The position numbers and the translations under genes were made by a program. A model generated the notes under the pieces. It saw nothing but the letters and a program-made list of their open reading frames with translations. It was not told where the DNA came from and did not search any database. This document shows, piece by piece, positions 7,218 through 13,017 of a stretch of DNA of 39,547 nt (positions are counted from its first letter, which is position 1; each line of letters begins with the position of its first letter). The stretch spans positions 1 to 39,547 of the forward strand of contig VGSZ01000015.1 in assembly GCA_016874845.1 (NCBI GenBank). The letters are read 5' to 3'. The DNA is from Deltaproteobacteria bacterium (lineage in GTDB: Bacteria > Myxococcota > UBA727 > VGSZ01).

Positions 7218-8099
7218 TCAGCCGAGCAGGTGCTCGAGCACGGCCTGCTGCACCGGCATGCGGTTCATGGCCTGCTGGAACACCACCGAGCGCGGGCCCT
7301 CGAGCACGTCGTCGGTGATCTCGCGGCCGCGGTGCGCTGGCAGCGGGTGCAGCACGAGGACATCGGGCGACGCCCGCGACAACAGCGCGTCGTCGACGAC
7401 GAAGCCGGGCTCCACCGCGCGCCCCCACGCCGCCGTCAGCACCACGTCGGCGCCGTCGACGGCGGCCTGCGGGTCGCGCCCGATGCGCACGCGGGGCCCG
7501 GCCTTTTTGACCAGCTCGGCGTCGAGCTCGACGCCGGCGGGCAGCGCGAGGCGCAGTTCGAGGCCCGTGAGCGCCGCCAACGCGAGCCACCCGTGGGCCA
7601 CCGGCACGCTGTCGCCGACGAAAGCGACGCGGGCGTCGTAGGGGTGCTCGCGGCGCTCGTAGATCGTGAACAGGTCGGTGAGCGCTTGACACGGGTGGTC
7701 GCGGTCGGAAAGGCCATTGATCACCGGCACGCCAGCGTGGCGGGCCAGCTCGTCGACGGTGGCGTGCGCGCCTGCCGGCCGCACGACGAGCAGGTCGAGG
7801 TTGCCGCCCAGCACGCGCGCCGTGTCGCGCAGCAACTCGCCGTCCGTGCCGTCGGCGTGCAGCCAGATGTCGCGGCCCTGCAGCACCACCGCGTCGCCGC
7901 CGAGCAGCTTGATACCCGCCTCAAAGCTCACGCGCGTGCGCGTCGACGGCTTCTCAAACAGCATGCCGACGACGCGCCCCGACAACGTTGGCGCCAGCCG
8001 GCGCTTCTGTCGGTCGCGCTTGAGCTCCTGCGCGCGCAACAGCAGCGCCTCCAGGGTCTTCTTGTCGCCGACGTCGAGGGTGGTGCGGAGATGGCGCAT
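7218..8099 (-). CDS. ArgF-like aspartate/ornithine carbamoyltransferase family protein; acceptor uncertain
   Basis: The 293-residue protein has the fold and length of ornithine carbamoyltransferase. The carbamoyl-phosphate site is intact: STRTRVSFE, DHPCQALTDL and LHPLPAHRG. The ornithine side is not. The SMG loop (usual TDVWxSMG) reads LTAAWGRAVEPG, so the Asp and the Ser-Met-Gly are gone. The Asn-rich GDxxNN segment reads GDSVPVAHGW. The ornithine-contacting Cys of HCLP is Pro, and about ten residues between these motifs are missing. AxxWG recalls the KSWG of N-acetylornithine carbamoyltransferase, but the Pro-rich knot of acyl-ornithine enzymes is absent. Automated pipelines will probably call it argF. 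It is last in a minus-strand run behind the cyclophilin lipoprotein (75-bp gap). The family is certain, the substrate is not. Confidence 0.85.
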   Translation of the reverse strand: MRHLRTTLDVGDKKTLEALLLRAQELKRDRQKRRLAPTLSGRVVGMLFEKPSTRTRVSFEAGIKLLGGDAVVLQGRDIWLHADGTDGELLRDTARVLGGNLDLLVVRPAGAHATVDELARHAGVPVINGLSDRDHPCQALTDLFTIYERREHPYDARVAFVGDSVPVAHGWLALAALTGLELRLALPAGVELDAELVKKAGPRVRIGRDPQAAVDGADVVLTAAWGRAVEPGFVVDDALLSRASPDVLVLHPLPAHRGREITDDVLEGPRSVVFQQAMNRMPVQQAVLEHLLG

Positions 8100-8174: not shown

Positions 8175-10235
8175 TCAGTGCGTCTTACGCAGCGCCGTGA
8201 CGACGTCGATGTCGAAGACGACATCGTCACGCTGCAGCGCATCCATCACGGCGAGACCGTCGACGACCCGCGCAAACAGCGTGAAGCGACCATCGAGGTG
8301 CGGCTGCCACGAGTGCACGAGGAAGAACTGGCTGCCGCCAGTGTCCTTGCCGGCGGTGGCGATGCCCACCGCGCCGCGGGTGAACGGCGCGTCGCTGTTC
8401 TCGCAGGGGATGAAGAAGCCGGGCCCGCCGGACCCGTCGCCGCGCGGGTCGCCGCCCTGGGCGACGAAGCCGGCGATCACGCGGTGGAGCGGCGTACCCC
8501 GGTAGGCGCCCTTGCGCGCCAGCGCGACGAAGGTCTGTACCGCCACCGGCGCGAGCTCGCGCTCGAACGCGATCTTGATGGCGCCGCGCGAGGTCTGCAG
8601 CACCGCCCCCAGCGGCAGCGTCGCCGGGACGGGCGGAGCGTCGCCCATCGCGCGCGGCCCCGGCGCGCGCTCGCCCGCCGGGACGTCGGCCGCGACGTCG
8701 CGGACGCGCGGGTCGCGGTGGACCTTCAGGCGGGCCGTGAGCTCTTCGAGCCCCGGGCGCCCGCGGGTCAGCGCCGCCAGCGCGAGCAGCGGCTCGCGCG
8801 CCTCGGGTGCGCTCGCGTCGGTGAACCGAGCCGCCGCCGCCGCGATGGTCGCGTCGCGCAGCACGTCGGCGTGGGCGTCGTCGGCGAAGCATTCGAGCAG
8901 GGCGCCAGCGACACCGGGATCGTCCTCGCGCAGCAGGCGCGTGGCGGCTACGTCGGCGGCCTCGACGCCGCCGATGCCGCACACCGCCGCGGCCGCCGTG
9001 ATGCGTATAGGCACCTCGTCGTCGTCGACGAAGGTCTGCAGCTGCGCGAGCCGCTCCGTCGCCGCCATCCGCCGGCGCGCGATGGCGTCGACGACGTGCC
9101 GCGCCCGCGCCGCGGGCGACGCGGTGCAGAACAGAAGCGCGTCATCGCCGCCGCCGAGCACGTCGAGGGCACCCGCGCACCCACAACGCGCCTCGTCAGC
9201 GCCGGCGGGCAGGGCCGCGACAGCCGCCATCACCGCCGGGGTGGCTTCGGCCGGCGCGCCGACGACGGCGAGGGCGGCGCAGACCTCGCCGACGACGTGC
9301 TGCTCGCCTGGCTGCGTCGCCCGTGCGACGGCACGACCGAGAGCGTCGACGAGGTTGCCAAGGGGGACGTCCTGGCGGGCGGCGACGGTGCGCGCCGCTT
9401 CGACCCGCACGCGCCAGTCTTCGTCACGCAGCAGCGCCGCCAGCGCCGGCACGGCGATGTCGACCGCGACGAAGGGCAGCGCCCGCGCAACGAAGATGCG
9501 TGCCTGCGGGCTCGGCGACACGCGCGCCGCCGCGATTGCTTCGGCGCTCACCGGCAGGCGCTGCCGGAAGGCCGCGTAGGCAGCGCCCTCGGTGACGGCG
9601 GGCTCGGCGGCGCGCAACGCGGCGTCGACGACGCCGCGCACGACGTCGTCACGGGACAGTGACGCCTTGCGCCGGGCACCGGCGACGCCGAGCGCGACCA
9701 ACGCCGTCGCCCGCTCGTCGACCGAACCCTGCGCGGCGGTGTCGGTGAGCGTCTTCAGCCCGTCGCGCGCCGCCACACGGCCCAGCGCTCGCAACAGCGC
9801 GAGGCGTACGGCGGGTTCGCGCTCCTGTGGGAGGCGCGCCACCAGCGCGCTCTCGACCTCGACGCGACGTTGTTCGTGGGTCGGTCGCCGTGGGTCGAGG
9901 GCCAGGTCGATCTGTCCAGCGGCGAAGGCTGCGGTGGCGCGGACCAGGGCGTCGCCGTCGGCGAGCGCCACGAGCACGCCGGGGATCGCGTCGTGGCGCT
10001 CGAGGCGTGCCAGCGCGAGCACGGCCCGGGCGCGGGCCGCCGCCGACGGCGCCTGCAGCGTCGGCGCGAGTGCCTGGGCCTCGGCACGCCTCGTCTCGAG
10101 CTGCGCAGCGACGACACGGGGATCGGGAGGCGGCGGCTTCGCCGGCGTCGCGCAGCCGCCGACAGCCACGCCGACGCCGCAGAGGACGCCCACGGCGACG
10201 ACCACGCGACGGAAGGACTGGCACGCACGAGGCAT
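8175..10235 (-). CDS. HEAT-repeat lipoprotein with C-terminal cyclophilin-type peptidyl-prolyl isomerase domain
   Basis: This 686-residue protein starts with a lipoprotein signal (VLCGVGVAVGGC, lipobox VGGC). The middle, about residues 40-510, is built of Ala/Leu/Val helical repeats of HEAT type (for example RAVLALARLERHDAIPGVLVAL). The last ~160 residues are a cyclophilin domain that catalyses prolyl cis-trans isomerisation: FVALARKGAYRGTPLHRVI, FVAQGGDPRGDGSGGPGF, TGGSQFFLVHSWQPHLDG and FTLFARVVDG. The FxxQGGD and SQFF active-site motifs are kept. The likely role is an envelope folding factor with its own scaffold. It lies 52 bp downstream of the Imm51-like gene on the same strand. Confidence 0.92.
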   Translation of the reverse strand: MPRACQSFRRVVVAVGVLCGVGVAVGGCATPAKPPPPDPRVVAAQLETRRAEAQALAPTLQAPSAAARARAVLALARLERHDAIPGVLVALADGDALVRATAAFAAGQIDLALDPRRPTHEQRRVEVESALVARLPQEREPAVRLALLRALGRVAARDGLKTLTDTAAQGSVDERATALVALGVAGARRKASLSRDDVVRGVVDAALRAAEPAVTEGAAYAAFRQRLPVSAEAIAAARVSPSPQARIFVARALPFVAVDIAVPALAALLRDEDWRVRVEAARTVAARQDVPLGNLVDALGRAVARATQPGEQHVVGEVCAALAVVGAPAEATPAVMAAVAALPAGADEARCGCAGALDVLGGGDDALLFCTASPAARARHVVDAIARRRMAATERLAQLQTFVDDDEVPIRITAAAAVCGIGGVEAADVAATRLLREDDPGVAGALLECFADDAHADVLRDATIAAAAARFTDASAPEAREPLLALAALTRGRPGLEELTARLKVHRDPRVRDVAADVPAGERAPGPRAMGDAPPVPATLPLGAVLQTSRGAIKIAFERELAPVAVQTFVALARKGAYRGTPLHRVIAGFVAQGGDPRGDGSGGPGFFIPCENSDAPFTRGAVGIATAGKDTGGSQFFLVHSWQPHLDGRFTLFARVVDGLAVMDALQRDDVVFDIDVVTALRKTH

Positions 10236-10287: not shown

Positions 10288-10845
10288 CTACTCGAGCCGG
10301 TCCGGCGCGGCGTGATCGAGCGCCTGCTTCAGCACGGCGCCGTCGTCGAGCGCCGCGCGCAGCAGACCGGCGACGGCGACCAGGTTCGCCCGACCACCGA
10401 CGGCGACAAACATCGCGGTCTCGGAGTCGTAGGCGACGAGAGCGACGAGGTCGGGCCGCCGCCGGCGGACGAGAGAGTCGACGACGGCCTCCCACGTGTA
10501 GCCGTTGCCGGCGAGGCCGCGCTCATCGAACAGCGGCACACGCGGCATGCGGAGGTCATCGAAGCACAGGGAGCAGCGGCCCTCGCCGTGGTCGACGAGT
10601 CGGCATGGTGCCACCGCGTCGACAGCCGCGGCCACCAGCTGCTCGGACGCCGGCGCCGCTGGCACGGGAGATCCTGCGGTCTTCTTCGCCGCGGTCTTCT
10701 TCGCCGCGGTCTTCTTCGCCGCGGTCTTCTTCGCCGCGGTCTTCTTCGCCGCGGTCTTCTTCGCCGCGGTCTTCTTCGCCGCGGTCTTCTTCGCCGCGGT
10801 CTTCTTCGCCGCGGTCTTTTTCGTGATCCTCGTGCGGCTCGCCAT
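10288..10845 (-). CDS. Imm51-like domain protein with N-terminal KKTAA-repeat tail
   Basis: The 185-residue product has two unlike parts. Residues 9-58 are ten KKTAA pentamers (the last one KKTAG), a histone-H1-like basic tail that could bind nucleic acid. Residues about 70-185 resemble the Imm51 family of polymorphic-toxin immunity proteins: PLFDERGLAGNGYTWEAVV followed by VAYDSETAMFVAVGG. Imm51 domains also occur as general-purpose proteins, so immunity is only one option, and no toxin gene is adjacent. The gene starts 11 bp after the MarR stop, so it is probably in the same operon. The domain match rests on remembered motifs and should be checked. Confidence 0.7.
   Translation of the reverse strand: MASRTRITKKTAAKKTAAKKTAAKKTAAKKTAAKKTAAKKTAAKKTAAKKTAAKKTAGSPVPAAPASEQLVAAAVDAVAPCRLVDHGEGRCSLCFDDLRMPRVPLFDERGLAGNGYTWEAVVDSLVRRRRPDLVALVAYDSETAMFVAVGGRANLVAVAGLLRAALDDGAVLKQALDHAAPDRLE
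10681..10815. repeat. 15-bp in-frame tandem repeat, 9 identical copies (KKTAA coding)
   Basis: Nine perfect copies of cttcttcgccgcggt encode the KKTAA tail of the Imm51-like protein on the minus strand, with a diverged unit at each end. Identity at the DNA level, not only at the protein level, implies recent expansion or homogenisation. Copy number may vary between strains. Confidence 0.95.
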
Positions 10846-11708: not shown

Positions 11709-11875
11709 TGTCGGGCGGGCCAAGCGGTGCTCCTGCGAGAGACGATGGGGCGTGCGCGTCGCAGCGACGAGGACGTCGGGCGTGCGAGCCGCAGGAACAA
11801 ACCCCGGCGCCCCCATGCTGTCAAGGACGACGAATGACGCTGCTCCGCACATTGACACCACGGGGGGGAACGGCG

Positions 11876-11901
11876 ACGACATCTGGCCGGTGCGATGTCG
11901 T
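11876..11901. promoter_or_regulatory. inverted repeat, candidate MarR operator
   Basis: Perfect 8-bp arms ACGACATC and GATGTCGT are separated by 10 bp. They sit in the 226-bp divergent region between marR and the AstA-family gene, ending 34 bp upstream of the AstA ATG. A TTGACA hexamer lies just before it (11852-11857), although no good -10 follows. Size and symmetry suit a MarR dimer site that could control both directions. It is inferred from sequence only. Confidence 0.5.
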
Positions 11902-11934
11902 GATCGACCGTCCGGGCGGCAACGGCGAGGGTCC

Positions 11935-13017
11935 ATGTTTATCATCCGTGACGCCCGCTTCGACGACATGGACGGCCTGCTGCACCTCGCGGCGGTGCTG
12001 AACACGGTCAACCTGCCGCACGACCGCGTGGCCCTCGAAGAGCTCCTTGTCCTGTCGACGCGCAGCTTCGCCGGGCGGGTGCGCAGCCCGCTGCACCGCG
12101 AGTACCTGTTCGTCATGGAGGACACGACGACGGGCCGCTTGATCGGAACGAGCCAGATCATCGCCCAGCACGGCACGCGCGAGGAGCCGCACATCTACTT
12201 CGACGTGCTCGAGGAGGAGCGCTACTCCGCCACCATCGATCGCCACTTCCGTCACAAGGTGCTGCGGATGGGCTTCGATCACGACGGGCCCACCGAGATC
12301 GGCGGGCTCGTCCTCGACCCCGACTACCGCCGGGTGCCCGGCAAGCTCGGCAAGCAGCTGTCGTTCGTCCGCTTCGTCTTCATCGCCATGCACCGCGCGT
12401 GGTTCCGGCCCCGCGTGCTGGCTGAGTTGCTGCCGCCGCTGCTCGACGGCGGCAAGAGCGTCCTGTGGGAGGCCCTGGGGCGGCGCTTCACCGGCCTGTC
12501 GTACCTCGAGGCGGATCGCATCTCGAAGACCAACAAGGAGTTCATCAAGGGTCTTTTTCCGTCGGGGCTCATCTATGCGACGCTGTTCGACGAGGACGCG
12601 CAGCGCGTGATCGGCGAGGTCGGCCCACAGACCGAGGGGGTCAAGAAGATGCTGACGTCGATCGGGTTCGCGCCCATCGGCCGCATCGACCCCTTTGACG
12701 GCGGCCCCCACTTCGAGGCGAACACCGGCGACCTGTGGCCGGTCACGAAGACGCGCCGCGGCACCGTCCGCGTCGTGGCCGGTGCCACGCTCACCGACGG
12801 TCCAGGCGAGAGCTGCGACGGTCTGGTGGCCGTCGAGCGCCGCCCCGCCCGTGGCAAGACGTTGCCGCCCGGCGCGTCGATGTTCCGCTGTGCGCTCACC
12901 GAGTTCGGCGAGCAGGGCGACGCGCTGCTCGTGCCGAAGCAGACCGCCGCGGCGCTCGGCGTCGTCGATGGGGACGACGTCTGGGCGCTGGCGATGGCTC
13001 GCCACACGCGCCTTTGA
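11935..13017 (+). CDS. AstA/AruG-family arginine (ornithine) N-succinyltransferase
   Basis: The 360-residue protein aligns by eye along its length with arginine N-succinyltransferase, the first enzyme of the AST arginine-degradation pathway, which transfers succinyl from succinyl-CoA to the alpha-amino group. Visible family blocks are FIIRDARFDDMDGLLHLA, YLFVMEDTTTGRLIGTSQI, EIGGLVLDPDYR, FIAMHRAWFRPRVLAELLP, WEALGRRFTGLSYLEAD and FIKGLFPSGLIYATLF. ATG 11935 with an upstream gagg is where homology starts; the ORF track begins earlier at 11059, inside marR. No other ast genes are in the window, so this may be a stand-alone family member with a different acyl acceptor. It is divergent from the MarR-led operon that ends in the ArgF-like enzyme. 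Confidence 0.87.
   Translation: MFIIRDARFDDMDGLLHLAAVLNTVNLPHDRVALEELLVLSTRSFAGRVRSPLHREYLFVMEDTTTGRLIGTSQIIAQHGTREEPHIYFDVLEEERYSATIDRHFRHKVLRMGFDHDGPTEIGGLVLDPDYRRVPGKLGKQLSFVRFVFIAMHRAWFRPRVLAELLPPLLDGGKSVLWEALGRRFTGLSYLEADRISKTNKEFIKGLFPSGLIYATLFDEDAQRVIGEVGPQTEGVKKMLTSIGFAPIGRIDPFDGGPHFEANTGDLWPVTKTRRGTVRVVAGATLTDGPGESCDGLVAVERRPARGKTLPPGASMFRCALTEFGEQGDALLVPKQTAAALGVVDGDDVWALAMARHTRL

Follow-up and report, generated by a model that had tools for sequence, protein, structure and literature searches.

What does a transcarbamylase do once the residues that hold its second substrate are gone? The question is raised by a gene on the reverse strand (positions 7218–8099) of the window, the 39,547-nucleotide stretch of DNA analysed here. 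The initial annotation described its product as an ArgF-like protein that had kept the carbamoyl phosphate (CP) site and lost the ornithine side, and suggested that it uses a different acceptor. The open reading frame is complete from ATG to stop (293 amino acids plus stop), and family models and the tree identify the product as a paralogue of the ornithine carbamoyltransferase (OTC) lineage. Both OTCase Pfam domains are matched, and the SxRT, HPxQ and HxLP motifs and two-domain fold of the transcarbamylase superfamily are present. OTC models are the top NCBIfam matches, yet all score under their own cut-offs (TIGR00658, 243.8 versus 280.85 bits; PRK00779, 284.3 versus 306 bits); the other orthologues likewise fall under the OTC family cut-offs, whereas canonical control OTCs score above them. 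AlphaFold, run with a 32-sequence alignment, predicted the structure with pLDDT of 95.9 and pTM of 0.93, and the closest solved fold, a match of fold only, is Pyrococcus furiosus OTC (1a1s, TM 0.92).

The carbamoyl phosphate site is retained

Residues were compared in an alignment of five orthologues, 51 canonical OTCs, six N-acetylornithine carbamoyltransferases (AOTCs), two aspartate carbamoyltransferases (ATCases), and Escherichia coli ArgI and YgeW. Contact residues were taken from the table of Shi, Allewell and Tuchman (PMC4581275), and residue numbers such as N167 and D231 are those of E. coli OTC. Orthologues are listed in the order G000 (the window's genome), G002 (a congener), G003, G005 and G006.

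The CP motifs are intact, as the initial annotation had stated. On the reverse strand, the window encodes STRTR at the phosphate end of the site (residues 52–56, positions 7932–7946), R107, the equivalent of R106 (7779–7781), HPCQ at the carbamoyl end (residues 135–138, 7686–7697), HPLP in place of HCLP (residues 251–254, 7338–7349) and AMNRMP in place of AENRLH (residues 277–282, 7254–7271). In the last of these, NR (residues 279–280) is present and R319 of the CP site is retained, whereas E317 and H321 are lost. STRTR is identical in all five orthologues, as is the whole donor side (S55, T56, R57, T58, R59, R106, H133, Q136, H272, L274, P275 and R319). One change had gone unmentioned: in the 80s loop (RDIWLHADGTDGE, residues 76–88, 7836–7874, reverse strand), the inter-subunit CP residue Q82 is replaced by W79, with an insertion. 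This position reads W/W/H/Q/Q across the orthologues and is variable among known OTCs too (PMC4581275).

The ornithine contacts are lost and their replacements vary

Besides L274, the direct ornithine contacts in the same table are N167, D231, S235 and M236; K53 makes a water-mediated contact and C273 is assigned to the CP site (PMC4581275). In the window protein, GDSVPV (residues 162–167, 7599–7616, reverse strand) replaces GDGNNM, with P166 in place of N167, and TAAWGRAV (residues 222–229, 7413–7436, reverse strand) replaces TDVWxSMG in a shortened loop that lacks D231, S235 and M236. The observation of an OTC-like protein without these contacts is therefore confirmed. The wording that the whole ornithine side had gone is slightly too strong, because K53 and L274 remain, and the accompanying list of losses overlooked E317 and H321. 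The change of Cys to Pro in HCLP is real but says little about ornithine binding, because ATCases normally have Pro there and C273 belongs to the CP site.

The same positions have changed in the other orthologues. The columns read P/A/G/S/S at N167, A/A/E/A/D at D231, P/S/P/P/K at C273, M/Q/G/G/G at E317 and P/P/C/C/C at H321; S235 and M236 are mostly replaced or deleted across the five, and none retains N167 or M236. Among 45 alignment columns that are (nearly) invariant in the 51 canonical OTCs, eight are each retained by no more than one orthologue: N167, D231, S235, M236, G237, C273, E317 and H321. All four direct ornithine contacts tested fall among these eight (hypergeometric P = 5e-4; P = 5e-5 when C273 is added to the four).

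No conserved replacement motif was found in the acceptor pocket across the five orthologues, or even within the genus: the congener G002 differs from the window protein at N167 (P/A), 234 (G/S), C273 (P/S) and E317 (M/Q). Where the window protein has AxxWG, the relatives have AAWS, EAWT, ARWH and DQWP. Because AxxWG is private to the window sequence, its likeness to acetylornithine enzymes, to which attention had been drawn, is coincidental. Nor did the changes arise as one package, as had been proposed, the full loop deletion being confined to the window's genus and the loop of G003 being full length.

An order-specific clade within the OTC lineage

A profile of the five orthologues (E < 1e-148) recovered these five alone among 195 searched genomes of the phylum before the next match, a canonical OTC of G025 at 1e-102. 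All five are intact, full-length genes from the window's order, one in each of five genomes that represent four genera. In the tree they form one clade (support 100/99) nested among the OTCs of the phylum. Its sister (100/97) is the canonical OTC of G025 (L046 5772–6692), the nearest sequence to the window protein, which adjoins a class-III aminotransferase gene in an argD–argF arrangement. The tree thus nests the window protein among OTCs, yet the surrounding enzymes retain the ornithine residues instead of sharing its substitutions, so the placement that the initial annotation named as grounds for refutation was not found. G025 has, in addition to this argD-linked OTC, an AOTC beside argG (L047 4673–5674), and these two apparent arginine routes may resemble the state from which the divergent gene arose.

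The congener G001 gave no match for the divergent gene; its contig stops within the HEAT/cyclophilin gene that is upstream in the window, and an assembly gap may therefore hide the divergent gene. Scanning a genome collection with the window protein returned two distant canonical OTCs only. Plasmid and phage matches were at the ordinary OTC level, identity being no higher than about 43% in the matches listed, and there was no PADLOC match; a phage, plasmid or defence origin was therefore rejected. Genomes of the phylum's family f8 each carry several other divergent genes that resemble transcarbamylases (G028:C55, G028:C163, G028:C279, G047:C74, G050:C16 and G050:C141).

Another enzyme covers the arginine step

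The initial annotation had proposed looking for a second true argF in the genome. The window's genome encodes an AOTC (560 bits, cut-off 288) next to argG, as well as PyrB (358 bits, cut-off 263) with CarA nearby, argG and CarA being named from their translations. AOTC also scores above its cut-off in G001 and G002. In G003 and G006 the AOTC gene lies beside argG and groups with other AOTCs in the tree, and G005 has a separate canonical OTC that scores above the cut-off and retains DxxxSMG, the Asn and HCLP. With AOTC in four of the five carriers and a second, canonical OTC in the fifth, every carrier has another enzyme for the arginine step, and the window protein is not the cell's arginine enzyme. 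Carbamate kinase was not found above its family cut-off in the seven genomes searched, and catabolic recovery of CP was rejected on this ground.

Constraint is split between the two halves of the protein

Between the congeners G000 and G002, the divergent gene has dN/dS of 0.21 (bootstrap 0.15–0.30), compared with 0.19 for AOTC and 0.19 for argG; the C-domain alone gives 0.29. This pair alone was used because in distant pairs dS is saturated or composition-biased. Decay is unlikely, since the congener dN/dS is close to that of argG. The earlier view that the changes do not reflect random decay holds, given five intact genes in four genera, this dN/dS value and the separate arginine enzyme.

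The 12 CP-site positions have a pairwise identity of 1.00 within the clade, versus 0.96 in canonical OTC pairs of like divergence. By contrast, ten acceptor-side positions, picked from knowledge of canonical enzymes and not blind, and with gapped loop positions scored as mismatches, have a pairwise identity of 0.21, versus 0.93 in canonical OTC pairs. Against random column sets, the acceptor columns were less conserved at the level of 3 in 10,000. The ratio of C-domain to N-domain identity is 0.79 in the clade and 1.04 in canonical OTCs, and between the congeners the pocket is 0.43 identical, compared with 0.76 overall.

Gene neighbourhood

Upstream of the divergent gene, on the same strand, lies a gene for HEAT repeats and a cyclophilin-type isomerase with a lipoprotein-like start (8175–10235, reverse strand). 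It is directly upstream in G000 and G002 and also lies upstream in G003, and in G005 it is one gene farther off; HEAT/cyclophilin and/or PD40 proteins precede the divergent gene in G003, G005 and G006. The HEAT/cyclophilin gene evolves fast (dN/dS of 0.51 between congeners), although its position is conserved. Clusters in three relatives place the divergent gene upstream of PhoH and YbeY (G005 and G006) or of a 7TMR-HD protein (7TM-HD phosphohydrolase) and YbeY (G003); PhoH and YbeY were not seen downstream of it in G000 and G002. No arginine-synthesis gene is linked to it in any carrier.

An arginine N-succinyltransferase gene, astA (about 11830–13017, forward strand; 308 bits), lies about 4 kb from the divergent gene and is also nearby in G002. 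A link was rejected, as the adjacency occurs in the window's genus only and is absent from the stretches examined in G003, G005 and G006. At 10288–10845 (reverse strand), a KKTAAKKTA... tail resembling histone-H1-like HC2 is joined to an Immunity protein 51 domain match. The same gene occurs in G002 (L036 10513–11346) and G001 (L077 1324–2211), and its repeat number differs between congeners.

A putative carbamoyl phosphate-binding paralogue

We favour the view that the divergent gene encodes an OTC-derived pseudo-transcarbamylase that would bind or hydrolyse CP and have no dedicated small acceptor site, a reading to which we assign a probability of roughly 0.45 on the strength of sequence comparisons. 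The gene is a paralogue of ArgF, specific to the order and inherited vertically. In an ancestral genome a different enzyme would have taken care of the arginine step, as AOTC does now in four of the five genomes and a separate OTC in G005. The original OTC copy lost its ornithine pocket while its CP motifs stayed, and selection retained it. CP would be bound in the usual N-domain site, with no dedicated small molecule at the former ornithine site to receive its carbamoyl group, leaving a role as a sensor, buffer or partner subunit. We infer CP binding from the retained residues; a lack of transfer and a part in regulation are likewise proposals. Because CP is unstable and gives rise to reactive cyanate (PMC6022934), a protein that holds, senses or hydrolyses it would be plausible. 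More tentatively, a transcarbamylase fold might have become a dedicated CP-binding protein (sensor, buffer or hydrolase) in this one order, with its donor half frozen and its acceptor half free.

The main rival, close behind, is a working transcarbamylase with a new acceptor, held either in a lineage-specific small-amine pocket or as a protein or peptide amine docking in the opened cleft, where it would need no dedicated pocket. Possible though doubtful, it draws on the complete donor site in all five orthologues, purifying selection that extends to the C-domain, and the precedent of unknotted transcarbamylases that changed acceptor via the same loop (PMC4581275). One new small acceptor, however, predicts a conserved pocket, and here no part of the protein varies more than the replacement residues, which differ even in the congener (0.43 versus 0.76 overall). 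The simple proposal of a different acceptor is weakened by the lack of a new conserved motif in the pocket and by the failure of every known acceptor class to fit, the markers of the known alternatives being absent; pathway genes beside the divergent gene are lacking too. A CP binder without an acceptor site is therefore favoured, in keeping with identical CP positions alongside acceptor columns at 21%, the skewed domain ratio (0.79 versus 1.04), the dN/dS values (0.21; C-domain, 0.29), the 100/99 clade with an argD-linked canonical OTC as its sister, the genome's own AOTC and PyrB, the confidently predicted OTC fold (pLDDT 95.9) and the lack of a carbamate kinase above cut-off. Against it, the residues that polarize the carbamoyl group are all kept, as a working transferase would also need, and the 80s-loop CP residue from the neighbouring subunit is altered in G000 and G002. 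Five sequences are also few, and a shared acceptor could be gripped by residues outside the ten columns tested.

Residual or low ornithine carbamoyltransferase activity is improbable. The fold (TM 0.92 to 1a1s), the nested position in the OTC lineage and the retained K53 and L274 would suit it, but N167, D231, S235, M236, E317 and H321 are lost, the score is under the NCBIfam OTC equivalog cut-off (244 versus 281 bits), another arginine enzyme is present in every carrier and no arginine-synthesis gene adjoins the divergent gene. Least probable is a dying pseudogene of a redundant argF. Redundancy with AOTC or a second OTC and a drifting acceptor side would be expected of one, but the perfectly kept CP site would not, and this reading is disfavoured by dN/dS of 0.21 (0.15–0.30), comparable to argG and AOTC, and by open, full-length orthologues in five genomes of four genera.

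Comparison with known transcarbamylases

With ArgF OTCs (TIGR00658 and PRK00779), the window protein shares the unknotted fold, lineage, STRTR, HPCQ, HxLP, R106, R319 and length of about 300 residues, and it sits in the OTC branch of the tree. It lacks the DxxxSMG of the 240s (SMG) loop and N167 that characterize OTCs, as well as C273, E317 and H321. Unlike ArgF, it is encoded outside an arg operon, in a genome that has a different enzyme for arginine, and it scores below the cut-offs. Automatic pipelines are nevertheless likely to name it ArgF.

AOTCs (PRK04523) share the superfamily and CP motifs, but their proline-rich knot loop, extended 120s loop and K252 equivalent (A in place of K) are all missing, which bears out the earlier remark that the knot loops are absent. 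The AOTC model gives the divergent proteins 118–139 bits or less (cut-off 288), and the window protein has the features of neither N-acetylornithine nor N-succinylornithine carbamoyltransferases. An AOTC-like reading was rejected because AxxWG is private to this protein and the genome encodes a genuine AOTC at another locus. The window protein resembles ATCase (PyrB) in HPLP and a Gln-Gln-Ala-x-Asn stretch, but R167 and the RxQxxER loop motif are absent, the protein falls in the OTC branch and PRK00856 gives 145 bits (cut-off 263).

Precedents are the putrescine, 2,3-diaminopropionate, 2,4-diaminobutyrate and ureidoglycine enzymes, which are unknotted and changed acceptor largely via the same loop, as documented for the first three (PMC4581275). 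Their markers (Q164/D227/Y233; the TRWQ loop, HDLP and K at 319; R189/S258/K261 in the ATCase branch) are not in the window protein. Putrescine carbamoyltransferases have Gln 167, Asp 231, a (Y/W)(G/W)(V/L/I) loop, FxQxSxRT and about 20 extra C-terminal residues, a combination that the window protein lacks, and TIGR04384 gives 190 bits (cut-off 500). In place of the (T/S)RWQTTG or TRWQSMG loop, HDLP and Lys for R319 of the 2,3-diaminopropionate and 2,4-diaminobutyrate enzymes, the window protein has TAAWGRAV, HPLP and R280. Ureidoglycine enzymes combine H(T/S)LP with the ATCase branch, whereas the window protein has HPLP in the OTC branch and HSLP occurs in G002 only.

Our literature search found no paper that deals with this lineage or with a pseudoenzyme of the OTC type; a RiPP preprint on carbamoyltransferases was set aside, as it concerns NodU-like proteins of a different family. 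Orphans of this general kind were anticipated, because bacterial transcarbamylase sequences without the essential motifs of known classes, of unknown function, have been noted (PMC4581275). New here is a defined clade with an origin, a co-occurring arginine enzyme and a split in constraint. In this clade the donor site is perfectly kept, the acceptor site drifts in a gene under selection and the arginine step is done by another enzyme. To our knowledge, known transcarbamylases differ by the exchange of one acceptor site for another; the clade described here is a natural experiment on what such an enzyme can still do when deprived of its second substrate.
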